DNA of 23,616 nucleotides from IMG/VR virus record IMGVR_UViG_3300036715_000833, positions 1-23,616 of that record. The stretch is one strand, 5' to 3'. Shown here piece by piece: positions 3,448 through 21,810 of the stretch. Every line of letters begins with the position of its first letter. Positions within the stretch are counted from its first letter, which is position 1. The position numbers were made by a program, and so were the translations under genes. The notes below the pieces were generated by a model. The model made no database searches and had not been told where the DNA came from. It saw only the letters and a list, made by a program, of their open reading frames with translations. The stretch is from a virus.

Positions 3448-5082
3448 ATGGCCGCAATCACTGCCCCCCCCACTACTGTTCCAATCTTTCAGTATCCTCC
3501 CAATTTCCCTAGTGGGGTGGTGAACGACCAATGGCTTGCATGGTTCGAGACTGTGCAAACCAATACCTACGTCTTCCCACCTCCAATCGCTGGCTATGCT
3601 CTTGGCTGGGATGCACTTGGGAATATAGTGAACGTCCCCAATACCGGGGCCGATCAGACCGCCGTTTTGGCTGATACGACCTTGGCAACGAATGGCGCTG
3701 GAAGGATCGGGTACAACGGGGCTTTGACCTACCCATCCAATACGGCTGGGTCTGCCATCGCGGCTCGCATCGTTGGGTCCGATTTGGCCTCTACTTCGGA
3801 CGCAGCCAAAGGCGCGGGTTCGGTCGGGTTCTCTAGCCTCCTGAGTTATGCTATCGGAACCGTTGGCGAATGGTTGACTCGACTGTCGTCTAGCGTGGGC
3901 GCGGGGATGGTGGGCTACCTCGCACCGTTCACGGGGGCGGTGGCTACAACCGTTAAAGATCGGCTGGACCTGGTAAGCACCATCGTGCCCCCCACTGCCA
4001 ATGGCGATAATACCTTCGTCGGGTATGCCGGGAATACCACACTCAGCCCAAACGGAGGCGCGGCTACCCTCGCATCCCAAAACACGGGGGTCGGCAAAGG
4101 CGCTTTGGCTGCTCTGACCACTGGCTTCGAGAACACGGCCATCGGCGTGGCCGCCATGGCTTCGACCACCACAGGGGACCGAAACACGGCTGTCGGTGTG
4201 ACGGCGCTCCAGAACAATACGACAGGCGATCACAACATCGCGTTCGGCCAGAATGCGCTTCAGGCGAACATCTCAGGTGCCTACAACACGGCCATCGGCA
4301 TTGATTCTCTGCACTACAATATTGACGGCTACTACAATGTCGCTCTGGGTCAGAACGCGCTCCTGAACTGCGACCACGGTTACTACAACACCGCTCTCGG
4401 GATTGATACTCTTAAAGCCCTGACTGGAGGCCACGACAATGTAGCCATCGGGGAGACAGCAGGCTACAGCCTCACAACTGGATTCTATAATGTCGCTGTC
4501 GGTGTCGGCGCTCTGCATTCTTGTGTGAACCACGTGGCGAATGTGGCCATTGGGCAGTGGGCAGGCTACTCCAACGACGGTAACAACAATGTGTTCATCG
4601 GATACTCGGCTGGTTATTACGAGACCGGCTCGAATGTGCTGATGATCGACAACCAGGCGAGGGCAAGCGAAGCGGATGCCCGCCTCAAGGCCATAATCTA
4701 CGGGATCTTCGCTGACACCCCGGCGGCCCAGCGACTCATCTTCAATGCGAACCTGGGCTTCAACGGACTCACCCGTAAATTGGCGAAGGTCTTCGCGGAT
4801 AACGCAGGAGGGAACTCGTATTCCTACCCTTCCGACACGAGCTATGTCTACCTGACATCTCCCAACACCACGGCCACTACCATTACCCTCCCCGCAACCA
4901 ACGGCTCCCACCCCATTGACGGGGCTGAGATCACCTTCGTCTGCGGGTCCAACATCACTACAGTGACATGGGCCGCAGGAGCTGGCGGGGCGACCATTAC
5001 TGGTGCCCCTACATCCATCACTGCCAATGTGCCAGTTCGCATGATTTACCACGCGGCGGGAGGCAAGTGGTATCCGTGCTAA
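3448..5082 (+). CDS. Second tail fibre/appendage protein with 17-residue tandem repeats
   Basis: A 544-residue protein. The start at 3448 follows AGGAG at 3434-3438. Residues 1-180 contain an aromatic/Pro-rich N-terminus and small 'GxGxxGY' modules. Residues 188-397 hold about twelve copies of an N-[TV]-A-[IV]-G-x-x-A-L-like unit. Ten of these repeat at exactly 17 residues (Asn at 212, 229, 246 and so on up to 365). This style is known from trimeric beta-roll appendages and YadA-like heads. Residues 440-544 form a beta-rich C-terminal domain with many Thr/Val strands. It follows the first fibre by only 12 bases, so they are probably cotranscribed. Its stop codon overlaps the stop of the convergent membrane-protein gene. 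A receptor-binding or branching fibre role is inferred. Confidence 0.78.
   Translation: MAAITAPPTTVPIFQYPPNFPSGVVNDQWLAWFETVQTNTYVFPPPIAGYALGWDALGNIVNVPNTGADQTAVLADTTLATNGAGRIGYNGALTYPSNTAGSAIAARIVGSDLASTSDAAKGAGSVGFSSLLSYAIGTVGEWLTRLSSSVGAGMVGYLAPFTGAVATTVKDRLDLVSTIVPPTANGDNTFVGYAGNTTLSPNGGAATLASQNTGVGKGALAALTTGFENTAIGVAAMASTTTGDRNTAVGVTALQNNTTGDHNIAFGQNALQANISGAYNTAIGIDSLHYNIDGYYNVALGQNALLNCDHGYYNTALGIDTLKALTGGHDNVAIGETAGYSLTTGFYNVAVGVGALHSCVNHVANVAIGQWAGYSNDGNNNVFIGYSAGYYETGSNVLMIDNQARASEADARLKAIIYGIFADTPAAQRLIFNANLGFNGLTRKLAKVFADNAGGNSYSYPSDTSYVYLTSPNTTATTITLPATNGSHPIDGAEITFVCGSNITTVTWAAGAGGATITGAPTSITANVPVRMIYHAAGGKWYPC
4009..4638 (+). repeat. In-frame 51-bp (17-residue) tandem repeat region of the second fibre gene
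   Basis: The encoded unit N-x-A-[IVFL]-G-x-x-[AS]-[LMG] recurs about twelve times. Ten consecutive spacings between residues 212 and 365 are exactly 17 residues (51 bases). The first gap is 24 residues and the last is 16. The DNA copies have diverged more than the protein pattern, so selection is on the protein fold. Confidence 0.85.
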
Positions 5083-5453
5083 TGGTTTACAAACTCACTC
5101 AAAACAGACCCGGCAGGGTTGCGGATTGTGGCGAGATCGGTTGGTATCCGGCAGAGAAAAGCGACTAAAGAGGCAGCACAAATACAGGAAAGGATAATAC
5201 CAACCACTGGAGCACCAACTTCACACCAGAAACCACTATCCTTCGTGTTCATGCCCTTCTTGATGGATGGAACAAGGCATACAACTGCGACAAGGGAGAG
5301 AATAACGCCAAGAGCGAGGGTGACGAGTTCACCTAGTGCTACGCTGGATCGGTAGGTGCACATCTGCTCGAACCCCCACTTGGCGGGGCCTGAAGTGGCG
5401 GTCGCCCCTTCTCGGATGAAACCCAGCACTTTTTGAAGCATTTCTTTGTCCAT
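5079..5453 (-). CDS. Small two-helix membrane protein, function unknown
   Basis: A 124-residue protein. The start at 5453 is chosen over an upstream in-frame ATG (5513) because AAGGGAG lies just before it. It has an N-terminal soluble helix (MDKEMLQKVLGF...) and two strongly hydrophobic segments: one around residues 44-62 (VTLALGVILSLVAVVCLVP) and one around 80-102. It has several cysteines. No family is recognised. It is the last gene of the leftward operon, faces the fibre genes directly and overlaps the fibre stop by 4 bases. Small membrane proteins at such borders are often accessory 'moron' genes, for example superinfection-exclusion proteins, but nothing in the sequence proves that. A holin-like role is less likely because a separate lysis cassette is present. 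Confidence 0.65.
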   Translation of the reverse strand: MDKEMLQKVLGFIREGATATSGPAKWGFEQMCTYRSSVALGELVTLALGVILSLVAVVCLVPSIKKGMNTKDSGFWCEVGAPVVGIILSCICAASLVAFLCRIPTDLATIRNPAGSVLSEFVNH

Positions 5454-5492: not shown

Positions 5493-5569
5493 GCGCCCAA
5501 CCGGGCGCTGCACTTGGACCCTGCCGCAAGTCCGAGATTTGGTAGGTTGTGACTCACCGTGCGGCAGGG
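5493..5569 (-). other. Two hairpins in the gap between the Tad2 homologue and the membrane-protein gene
   Basis: The gap 5480-5586 holds no gene. There is a perfect 10-bp inverted repeat, CCCTGCCGCA at 5519-5528 and TGCGGCAGGG at 5560-5569 (31-base loop). A perfect GCGCCC/GGGCGC hairpin with a 4-base loop lies at 5493-5508. Neither is followed by a T-run in the leftward direction, so they are not canonical intrinsic terminators. They could be an RNA-stability or attenuation element between operon genes. Confidence 0.5.
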
Positions 5570-5586
5570 CCGGTGAGATGGGGTCG

Positions 5587-5895
5587 TTAGGTGATAACTT
5601 CCCAGTCGTCAGCCAGCATGTCAGTTTGGGAGGCCAGCCACGGCACTCGTGCGCCCTCTGGATATGCTGATGCAGCAGTCACGACACAGCCGAGGCGATC
5701 GCTTGGAACATTGCCACCCGGGTAGTTCAGATAGATGTAGGGCAGCGTCATCTTGCTGTTGGCATCTGGCTGTTGGAGTTCAAGCCAGAGCCCTTTCCCA
5801 TCCCAGCCACTACGGCTCACCTTGCCGCCGTTCTTCAGTTCTTGTAGCGCCGCGCCAAAACTGACGCCTGTTTTCTTTCGTGTTTCGTGGTTCAT
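5587..5895 (-). CDS. tad2: Tad2/DUF2829 family protein, probable anti-Thoeris sponge
   Basis: A 102-residue protein. The pattern matches the DUF2829 (Tad2) family along its length: FGAALQELKNGGKVSRSGWDGKG at about 13-35, a LPYIYLNYPGG loop at 51-61, and the hallmark PWLASQTDMLADDWEV at 85-100. Established knowledge: Tad2 proteins bind and sequester the cyclic ADP-ribose signal made by Thoeris TIR proteins, blocking the defence. The start at 5895 has AGGAGG seven bases upstream. The N-terminal MNHETRKKTG is a short extension. It lies in the accessory end of the early operon beside MazG-like and DUF551 genes, as expected for a counter-defence gene. The family call is strong. Which signal molecule this copy binds is not known. 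Confidence 0.85.
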   Translation of the reverse strand: MNHETRKKTGVSFGAALQELKNGGKVSRSGWDGKGLWLELQQPDANSKMTLPYIYLNYPGGNVPSDRLGCVVTAASAYPEGARVPWLASQTDMLADDWEVIT

Positions 5896-5931
5896 GTCGT
5901 TCCTCCTTGGCCCACGGCGGGGCCGGTTAGC

Positions 5932-6198
5932 TCAACCCTCATGCGCCACCCGCTTCCCGAGGCGATCCAGCTTGTAGTCTATGGCCACGTCTACCTGGGA
6001 AGGCCCGAACAGGAGCCTCATTTGAGCGGCCATGATCAGCACGTCCGCAAGTTCCTCGATCACCTTTGCGGCGGGAACCTTGCCGTCCTGGAAATGGTGC
6101 AGCGCAACGGTCAATTCGGCGCATTCTTCGGCCATCTTCATGATCTGCCGGTCGCACCCGTAGGAGGCCAGGGCAGCGCGTAGGATCGTCTCATTCAT
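5932..6198 (-). CDS. MazG-like nucleotide pyrophosphohydrolase
   Basis: An 88-residue protein from the ATG at 6198, preceded by AGAGGA. The longer in-frame extension back to 6396 is Pro/Ser/Arg-rich, overlaps the DUF551 gene and looks non-coding, so the short start is chosen. The all-alpha NTP pyrophosphohydrolase motif is visible: EECAE at 24-28 and EELADVLIM at 48-56, giving the acidic ExxE...ExxD Mg-binding set. Family members hydrolyse (d)NTPs to monophosphates. Phage versions are thought to trim nucleotide pools or lower alarmone levels during infection. It sits between the Tad2 homologue and DUF551 in a tightly packed operon. Substrate is not inferable. Confidence 0.8.
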   Translation of the reverse strand: MNETILRAALASYGCDRQIMKMAEECAELTVALHHFQDGKVPAAKVIEELADVLIMAAQMRLLFGPSQVDVAIDYKLDRLGKRVAHEG

Positions 6199-6220
6199 GG
6201 TTCCTCTAGGTGGACATTCG

Positions 6221-6592
6221 CTAGACGGTCGGGGGTTCAGGGAGGGGCATCCAGTGGGTCGGCTGGCAACCGTCCTCGATGGGCGCATTGGCATCGGCTT
6301 CCCAATCACTGGACCACTCATCACCTTCCCCGGTATATGTGGCGATGGTGATGAGGCTGGTGTATCCAAGTTCGAGCATCCCGCCTTCGTTCTCATCGAG
6401 GTAGATCAGCACTTCCTGATCCTTCTCGGGGAGGCGATCAGCACATGGAATCCAGCCTTTCAACTTTCGCTCCTTCTCCATTGCGTCGAGGACATCACCT
6501 AAGACCTGGTCTATTTCGGGGTCAGTGTTCGGCATAAACTTCTCCAGGCTGAACCCGCCTTCCATCGGTGTCTTTGCGGGGTGGATCGTCAT
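6221..6592 (-). CDS. DUF551 domain protein
   Basis: A 123-residue protein. Residues 47-66 (WIPCADRLPEKDQEVLIYLD) and the ending THWMPLPEPP are the two signature blocks of DUF551, a small phage/prophage domain of unknown function. The first 45 residues are a variable acidic N-terminus. The start at 6592 overlaps the stop of the upstream 42-residue ORF as ATGA, with GGAGG just upstream inside that ORF. No catalytic residues are known for the family, so only the family can be given. Confidence 0.8.
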   Translation of the reverse strand: MTIHPAKTPMEGGFSLEKFMPNTDPEIDQVLGDVLDAMEKERKLKGWIPCADRLPEKDQEVLIYLDENEGGMLELGYTSLITIATYTGEGDEWSSDWEADANAPIEDGCQPTHWMPLPEPPTV

Positions 6593-10386: not shown

Positions 10387-11121
10387 TCACGACAGCTCCT
10401 TCCTGTGCGCCTCAGCCATGCGGAGCGCCTTGGCCCTCGTAACCTCAAAGGCCGCCACACGTTCCTCGGATTCCGCACTACCGTCATCCGGGAACTCGCT
10501 GGGGTTGCTCTCGCGGATGCCGATGGCGTCCCACTCATCCACGGAGTGGAAGAGACATCCCATCCGAACGTAGGGGGTTCCGTCATCAGCGACCACGGCC
10601 CAGCACTGGTAGCTGTAGAGCCCCGTCATGACCACGACTGCGGCCAGTCTTAGATCGCCGTATCTTGCACCGGCGAGTTTCGCCCTGGAGAGGTCCGCTC
10701 CAGCGAGATTTGCACCGGCGAGGTCCGCACCGGCGAGGTTTGCTTCGTAGAGGTACGCACCAGCGAGATTCGCACCGGAGAGATCGGCCCCGTAGAGGTT
10801 CGCCCTGACGAGGTTCGCTCCGAAGAGCTTCGCCTCGGCGAGGTTTGCCACGGCGAGGTTCGCACCGTCGAGATCCGCCCCGGAGAGGTCGGCACCGTAG
10901 AGGCCCGCCCCAGTGAGTAACGCCTTGGTGAGGTCAGCACCGGAGAGGTCTGCCTCGGCGAGGTCTGCCCCGGAGAGATCTGCCCCAGAGAGGTCGGCCC
11001 CGGAGATATCCGCTCCGTACAGGTCCGCCCTGACGAGTTTTGTACCGGCGAGGTCCGCCCCGGCGTGGGGTGTCCCGGAGCTTTCGCTGGTGATTTCAGT
11101 GGGGACGCTAGAGCGGGTCAT
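10387..11121 (-). CDS. Pentapeptide repeat protein with a C-terminal globular domain
   Basis: A 244-residue protein. From about residue 20 to 152 there are 26 uninterrupted pentapeptides of the A-[DN]-L-x-x type, predicted to fold as a right-handed quadrilateral beta-helix. Residues 153-244 are a separate non-repeat domain (YGDLRLAAVVVMTGLYSYQ, CLFHSVDEWDAIG, then a helical acidic-to-basic tail). The start at 11121 has GGAGGAACC upstream. Related helices such as Qnr and MfpA mimic B-DNA and act on gyrase. Whether this one does is unknown, because it lacks the visible loop insertions of Qnr. Other pentapeptide proteins have no known role. It has its own promoter at 11192-11219. Confidence 0.85.
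   Translation of the reverse strand: MTRSSVPTEITSESSGTPHAGADLAGTKLVRADLYGADISGADLSGADLSGADLAEADLSGADLTKALLTGAGLYGADLSGADLDGANLAVANLAEAKLFGANLVRANLYGADLSGANLAGAYLYEANLAGADLAGANLAGADLSRAKLAGARYGDLRLAAVVVMTGLYSYQCWAVVADDGTPYVRMGCLFHSVDEWDAIGIRESNPSEFPDDGSAESEERVAAFEVTRAKALRMAEAHRKELS
10660..11064 (-). repeat. 15-bp tandem coding repeats of the pentapeptide region
   Basis: The DNA repeats every 15 bases, with variants of GAGGT[CT]CGC[AC]CCGG on the + strand, for about 26 units. The copies are similar enough in sequence that recombination could change copy number. Confidence 0.85.
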
Positions 11122-21426: not shown

Positions 21427-21810
21427 GTGCCTGTGACCCTCACCCTGACATACAGCCAATCAAGCGGCCTCGTCACGAATAATGACGGGGCAATTGTTGC
21501 GCATGGTTGGGCGGGGAATGGGGCAGGCAAAGACAACCCCGCTATGCAGGACGTGCATAACGTGGGGCCGTTGCCACAGGGCACGTATGCGGTCGGCTAC
21601 TGGCATGACCACCCCAGGCTAGGCCCGATGGTGGCGGAGCTGGTCCAGATCAAAGGCGAGACGTTCGGGCGGAGCGATTTCTTCATCCATGGGCCGTCCA
21701 CCCATTCAGACCGCTATGGCCAGGAATCCCAGGGCTGCATCGTCCTGCCTCGCCCCGACCGGAACGCCGTGAAGGGCCTGGACCCTGACTTTATCCAGGT
21801 GGTGGCATGA
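21427..21810 (+). CDS. Probable endolysin with L,D-transpeptidase/Tlde1-like (DUF2778-type) domain
   Basis: A 127-residue protein starting at a GTG (21427, or possibly 21433); no strong RBS is visible, so the start is uncertain. It shows the DUF2778/L,D-transpeptidase-like layout: NVGPLPQGTYAVG in the centre, FFIHGPSTHSDRYG, and ESQGCIVLPR with the catalytic His and the S-x-GC Cys. Tlde1-type domains cut or exchange peptidoglycan peptide cross-links. It is followed by holin-like and spanin-like genes with ATGA overlaps, so it is most likely the endolysin. No signal peptide is present, so it would depend on the holin. Confidence 0.7.
   Translation: MPVTLTLTYSQSSGLVTNNDGAIVAHGWAGNGAGKDNPAMQDVHNVGPLPQGTYAVGYWHDHPRLGPMVAELVQIKGETFGRSDFFIHGPSTHSDRYGQESQGCIVLPRPDRNAVKGLDPDFIQVVA

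Follow-up and report, generated by a model that had tools for sequence, protein, structure and literature searches.

To understand what is encoded at positions 5,587 to 5,895 of this viral DNA, and how the gene came to lie there, we analysed the whole stretch of 23,616 nucleotides (hereafter the window), which is the linear IMG/VR virus contig IMGVR_UViG_3300036715_000833 (23.6 kb) and carries terminase, YqaJ/ERF recombination genes, helicases, a methyltransferase and tail genes. The answer that we consider likely is that a gene for a Tad2 signal sponge, of a protein family known to sequester bacterial immune signals, rides here as an accessory gene in a cassette array of the phage. The features concerned are the following.

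5079..5453 (-): next slot gene, a 124-aa membrane protein (phrog_1486 membrane protein, E 3e-4)
5495..5592 (-): complete attC-like site of 98 nt, R'' ACCTAAC ... R' GTTGGGC, an imperfect palindrome with one-sided bulges
5587..5895 (-): tad2-like coding sequence, 102 aa, PF11195/DUF2829 (Pfam, PDB phmmer, AF2 model, VIA)
5653..5721 (-): beta3-beta4 loop, residues 59-81, 23 aa, near the presumed ligand pocket (alignment of relatives, low pLDDT)
5866..5895 (-): N-terminal extension, codons 1-10, MNHETRKKTG, its first codons homologous to the attC-like site loop in loci L320, L347 and L328
5896..5936 (-): decayed attC-like site, 5' half only, GTTGAGC + GCTAACCGGCCC + GCCGT + GGGCC + Shine-Dalgarno AAGGAGG
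5932..6198 (-): MazG-like NTP pyrophosphohydrolase (PHROG_2245, 1e-21), its stop codon within GGGTTGAGC
6221..6592 (-): DUF551 protein (PF04448, 6.6e-16), common to L227, L324, L346 and L347
7395-7748: DUF4406/deoxyribosyltransferase-like gene (profile matches)

Judged by its sequence and its predicted structure, the reading frame at 5587-5895 (-) does encode a Tad2-like (DUF2829) protein. Translation starts at the ATG at 5895, which is preceded by AAGGAGGAACGAC, with a strong Shine-Dalgarno sequence (AAGGAGG) ending 6 nt upstream. The Tad2/DUF2829 signature reported in the first-pass annotation was borne out by the PF11195 Tad2-like profile (E 4e-21), by two DUF2829 PHROGs (PHROG_872 and PHROG_1048, ~2e-21) and by a phmmer search of the PDB, in which every solved Tad2 chain was matched (SPO1 Tad2, HgmTad2, SptTad2 and ModTad2); the profile search, which had been named as a possible refutation, gave a clear match at 75.8 bits against a curated cut-off of 25. 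Compared with 96 relatives, the Tad2 core is kept (R28, W31, W86, Q90, SQTD, D97 and W98), the sole exception among the invariant or near-invariant family columns being Asp32 in place of Asn32. As side observations on the family, L013 carries tandem Tad2-like genes of differing sequence on one phage contig (4971-5300 and 5512-5823), which may bind different signals, and many Tad2 relatives (L075, L083, L086, L089, L100, L108 and L004) possess an N-terminal domain of ~50 aa, GYxVRYxDGYESWSPKxxFExAYR, which constitutes the upstream half of the tad2 ORF in those relatives.

Modelling against Tad2 structures, as the first-pass annotation had proposed, placed the predicted fold beside SPO1 Tad2, ModTad2 and HgmTad2 at Z 10-11. 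The AF2 model (monomer) has a mean pLDDT of 83.8, with most core blocks above 90 and low values in the N-terminal extension (61) and in loop residues 61-80 (54-68). VIA-align Z scores were 11.1 for apo SPO1 Tad2, 11.0 for ModTad2 with His-ADPR, 10.5 for apo AcrIIA7 and 10.1 for SptTad2, and ranged from 9.9 to 11.1 across all solved Tad2 entries, the next non-Tad2 chain scoring 5.9. SPO1 Tad2 (gp34.65; PDB 8SME/8SMF/8WJE) is 40% identical over 75 aligned residues and shares the SGWxGK loop, the SQTD motif and the W98 core, but its beta2-beta3 segment is longer and includes helix alpha2, and its beta3-beta4 turn is short, whereas the window protein has a shorter beta2-beta3 segment, a long beta3-beta4 loop and the N-terminal extension. 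ModTad2 (Myroides odoratus prophage; PDB 9EIB/8V3E), which binds His-ADPR, has the same fold but differs in loop lengths and in carrying SVSD rather than SQTD. HgmTad2/AcrIIA7 and SptTad2 (PDB 8KBI, 8KBJ and 8WJD; Z 10.1-10.5) likewise share the fold and the SQTD motif, but possess a long, cyclic-dinucleotide-linked beta2-beta5 insertion that the window protein lacks.

With regard to the ligand, the first-pass annotation had described LPYIYLNYPGG as an uncommon central loop, which did not hold: the relaxed motif LPY[IV][YF][LIM][NSEA]YP was found in 47 of 124 sampled Tad2 relatives, exact LPYIYLNYP is present in L002 and L003, and this sequence is typical for the subfamily nearest to the window protein. 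The unusual part is instead an extra GNVPSDRLGCVVTA-like stretch after LPYIYLNYP; the beta3-beta4 loop, at 23 aa, is the longest of 97 (4-17 aa in the 96 relatives). Additionally, residue 32 is Asp (Asn in 94/97), while the beta2-beta3 loop has 11 aa, as in 71/97. The gcADPR pocket of SPO1 Tad2 lies between loops beta1-beta2, beta3-beta4 and beta4-alpha3, and HgmTad2 binds cyclic dinucleotides through its beta2-beta5 insertion (review, PMC12043709); by analogy with this map, the unusual features of the window protein would lie at the ADPR-type pocket. An insertion of the HgmTad2 type is absent from the window protein, and the SQTD motif of gcADPR-binding Tad2s is intact (SVSD in the His-ADPR binder ModTad2). 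Because of these three points a gcADPR-type ligand is our best guess, although with real doubt. Since the pocket loop is rebuilt, the Tad2 fold may conversely serve another main target, be it CBASS cyclic dinucleotides, His-ADPR of type II Thoeris or, in the manner of AcrIIA7, type II-A Cas9. We regard this as unlikely: the deposited entry for HgmTad2/AcrIIA7 names it a type II CRISPR-Cas inhibitor, it binds cyclic dinucleotides too, ModTad2 binds His-ADPR, and both the 23-aa loop and Asp32 would suit such a change, but the missing insertion and the kept SQTD argue against it.

Under the gcADPR-type reading, tad2 would encode a Tad2-family immune-signal sponge, most likely a multimer as predicted from its family, that sequesters TIR-derived ADP-ribose signals during infection (glycocyclic ADPR being the first choice), so that Thoeris-type effectors would stay inactive. 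A ligand preference differing from that of characterised Tad2 proteins, as originally suggested from the loop and the N-terminal extension, is possible; if the long pocket loop does alter ligand choice, the known range of Tad2 specificity would be wider.

Close relatives of the window phage were found via TerL and the YqaJ exonuclease, and these carry other genes at the tad2 position. Over most of the early operon L214 is 85-93% identical to the window; much of the early region aligns at 91-93% and other parts at 81-85%, the match ending at 6580. L227 matches as far as 6223 and then once more over 5930-5979, but lacks the MazG-like gene (present in L320). Any match to PF11195 was found in only one of 24 related records. 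Since these matches break off and so few related records hold the domain, tad2 is, on sequence comparison, accessory cargo and not core phage machinery. The proposal that tad2 sits next to other nucleotide-acting genes was correct locally (the MazG-like gene and the DUF4406 gene) but failed as a conserved association: DUF4406 occurred in 0/40 Tad2-bearing records, and the MazG-like, DUF551 and DUF4406 genes of the window had no relative in the first 140 loci, which ruled out a conserved tad2-MazG/DUF551/DUF4406 operon. For the 124-aa membrane protein, no relative was found in the fetched viral loci.

Directly 3' of tad2 lies the complete attC-like site, the R'' box of which contains the tad2 stop codon. 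It is 91% identical to a site in L296 and 87% to one in L216, loci in which the 98-nt element recurs between unrelated genes, with five or more sites each and a single small gene between neighbouring sites. The site ends carry integron-type boxes (ACCTAAC ... GTTGGGC; GCCTAAC ... GTTAGGC). A pattern search for such sites led to 27 stretches of viral DNA, and a covariance model built from eight sites (model R1) detected, at E<0.01, ~77 sites in one search and ~24 more in another, giving a family of ~100 sites in one-gene-per-slot arrays on some 30 IMG/VR contigs; each slot holds a single small ORF, and neighbouring sites mostly lie 230-540 bp apart. Single-gene cassette arrays were seen in L216, L296, L334, L349 and others, while in the window itself there is a complete site plus a half site. 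Every array contig was assembled from a metagenome, and the recurrence of ~95-nt sites could give rise to chimaeras in such assemblies. The site at 5495-5592 scores 83 bits with model R1, being itself part of the training set.

The pairing of the sites is kept by compensatory changes (15 cells, 0/500 shuffles), and both boxes fit the mutually complementary R'' RYYYAAC and R' GTTRRRY in 47/57 sites. Bulged bases are more numerous on the 3' arm in 47/57 sites and on the 5' arm in five. The bulged C and A of L296:2930 are separated by 6 bp, the very spacing found in the validated attC sites of TJE1, which are recombined by IntI1 (PMC9892861). The polarity of the sites is, however, inverted relative to the genes, with the bulges on the arm distal to the preceding gene, the reverse of what is seen in TJE1 attC, and the Shine-Dalgarno sequence and ATG of the following gene lie inside several sites; each site therefore appears to go with its downstream gene. 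For the same reasons, a cassette composed of the tad2 ORF and its own 3' attC was ruled out. An earlier reading of the 98-nt element as an H-type pseudoknot or riboswitch was dropped once R boxes, bulges and arrays had appeared, and an Rfam search of the element gave no match at E<=1.

The family resembles the phage CALINs without integrase described by Qi et al. 2023 (PMC9892861) in its small-gene arrays, R''/R' hairpins, bulged bases, lack of an integrase and methyltransferase cargo, but its sites run in inverted orientation with respect to the genes and several have a Shine-Dalgarno sequence and start codon in the loop; furthermore, the arrays belong to uncultured phages and their cargo includes tad2 and Lar. 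We infer that the sites may descend from integron attC and that a recombinase may have captured the slot genes. In the arrangement that we propose, tad2 would fill one slot in the 3'-terminal, variable part of the early operon, in an array of inverted attC-like hairpin sites, the loop of which could supply a Shine-Dalgarno sequence and start codon to the gene after it, and the complete site would form the boundary between tad2 and the next gene. By eye only, the first cassette of the published array, L315:77-280 (phage TJE1 orf1), encodes a protein whose ending, THWMPLPEPPT, resembles that of DUF551, the family of a tad2 neighbour in the window.

A decayed half of a second site precedes tad2. 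The window has a single copy of the 12-mer GCTAACCGGCCC, a 5'-arm sequence of the sites, and 1.62 Mb of DNA from other viral loci has none. Positions 5889-6211 match L320 at 93.8%, spanning the MazG-like gene, the half-site, the Shine-Dalgarno sequence and the tad2 ATG, and positions 5880-5932 match L347 at 83%. Past the first codons, L320 runs into the 3' arm of a site (GGGTCCGAGTTGAGCGCTGGGTTAGGC) whereas the window runs into the Tad2 domain, so that the tad2 translation start and N-terminal extension stem from the loop of a site. It is thus the 5' half of a further site that provides tad2 with its ribosome-binding site, start codon and N-terminal extension. The extension of about 10 residues noted at first pass is real, being in frame and with a Shine-Dalgarno sequence ahead of it, and is best explained, from these alignments, as a translated recombination-site leader rather than a ligand feature. 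Since the 5' site is incomplete, without its 3' arm, the tad2 cassette may no longer be mobile. Elsewhere, site-encoded tags (GSxLSEGLG and GxVERxVRP), which are the translated 3' arm of the site, begin many slot proteins in L216, L317, L321, L326, L329 and L334.

The missing 3' arm, together with Asp32 and a loop that is unique among 97 relatives, could also be taken to mean that tad2 is a decaying or inactive fusion, its site-derived start and odd loop marking a recent and possibly non-functional rearrangement. This is improbable, as the frame is intact, the Shine-Dalgarno sequence is strong, the core residues R28, W31, W86, Q90, D97 and W98 are kept and the core pLDDT exceeds 90.

A weightier objection to the cassette reading is that an ordinary phage Tad2 homologue arrived through normal mosaicism, and that the palindromes are lineage-specific hairpins (terminator-like or for translation coupling) which resemble attC by convergence. 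Consistent with this, no integron integrase (TIGR02249) over the cut-off was found in 28 array-bearing or related records other than the window, many of these records being partial; moreover, the orientation of the sites with respect to the genes is inverted, one site is incomplete, relatives keep only site scars, and a blast of the L216 array found nothing in annotated phages or plasmids. Against it stand the fit of R''/R' to the integron consensus in most sites, the bulge spacing shared with TJE1 attC, the absence of a U-tract after the site hairpins, and a slot gene that has full sites in L324 and collapsed ones in L214. On balance we consider mosaicism with convergence rather unlikely, though it is a stronger contender than a changed main target, and we retain the cassette reading. 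The slot gene in question (KLKAFLKWGGLAGG...) lies among full hairpin sites in L324:2950-3420 and among collapsed site scars in L214:9840-10720; both come from the same metagenome and are possible snapshots of site decay.

To evaluate if tad2 is associated with such sites elsewhere, other Tad2 loci were searched. In L082, an independent tad2 phage, a site detected with model R1 ends 41 nt before the tad2 ATG (E 1.2e-5 within the locus, 0.0011 over the 760 kb searched); its sequence differs and its bulges are the same. It is the only second case among ~92 sampled Tad2 loci. A strict attC scan of 1.03 Mb at other Tad2 loci found none, a weak negative since the scanner misses the validated TJE1 attCs too, and a relaxed scan gave background level. 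TJE1, with its published CALIN and a BFVD Tad2-like hit, was checked, and its record yielded no Tad2-like ORF at E<=10 (phmmer with the window protein). The main text of Qi et al. 2023 reports no Tad2 (PMC9892861), and no tad2 in phage attC arrays was found in the literature searched, in which subscription journals were covered thinly. Thus, while phage attC arrays were already known (PMC9892861), tad2 in one appears to be new.

The slot cargo set comprises 58 ORFs, most of unknown function. Among those recognisable, DNA methyltransferases and Lar restriction-alleviation proteins occur twice each, and a Mom-like modification protein, a MazG, a queuine tRNA-ribosyltransferase-like protein and a pentapeptide protein once each; in terms of sequence matches, the recognisable cargo is mostly anti-restriction. 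Control ORFs (n=101, roughly size-matched, from related non-array loci) included one methyltransferase, no Lar and no Mom, so that anti-restriction genes occupy 5/58 slots against 1/101 controls (Fisher p 0.025, a post hoc and rough comparison). Phage attC arrays are known to carry methyltransferases, and their cassettes had only been suggested to help overcome host defence (PMC9892861); Tad2-type sponge, Lar and Mom-like genes in slots make this suggestion concrete and testable. The results suggest that, in some phages, genes for counter-defence are swapped in cassette form, and phages may tap an integron-like gene pool for this purpose. A site with its own Shine-Dalgarno sequence and start codon would amount to a plug-in expression device, and would explain the N-terminal extension of Tad2 as leftover recombination sequence. 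More tentatively, and with appreciably less confidence than in the cassette reading itself, this uncultured phage lineage might keep a dedicated counter-defence cassette region in which a captured ORF is translated at once, from the ribosome-binding site and start codon of the loop, as a fusion to site-encoded residues, tad2 being one product.

As to the host, the nearest plasmid-borne relatives of the window TerL and helicase are mostly from Alphaproteobacteria, and on this sequence evidence the host is probably an alphaproteobacterium. In the class of a Tabrizicola MAG (L055), PF08937 ThsB_TIR was found in 55/385 genomes, which shows only that potential targets exist; in a STALD/ThsA search of 190 genomes of this class the control was silent. 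Two further window genes deserve mention. A pentapeptide-repeat protein (10387-11121, -) recurs in L214, L320, L328, L346 and L347, and in L347 it sits in an attC-like slot. Additionally, a Tlde1/YkuD L,D-transpeptidase-like protein (21427-21810, +; PF10908, 4.5e-10) is encoded in the presumed lysis region, where it is an unusual phage enzyme.
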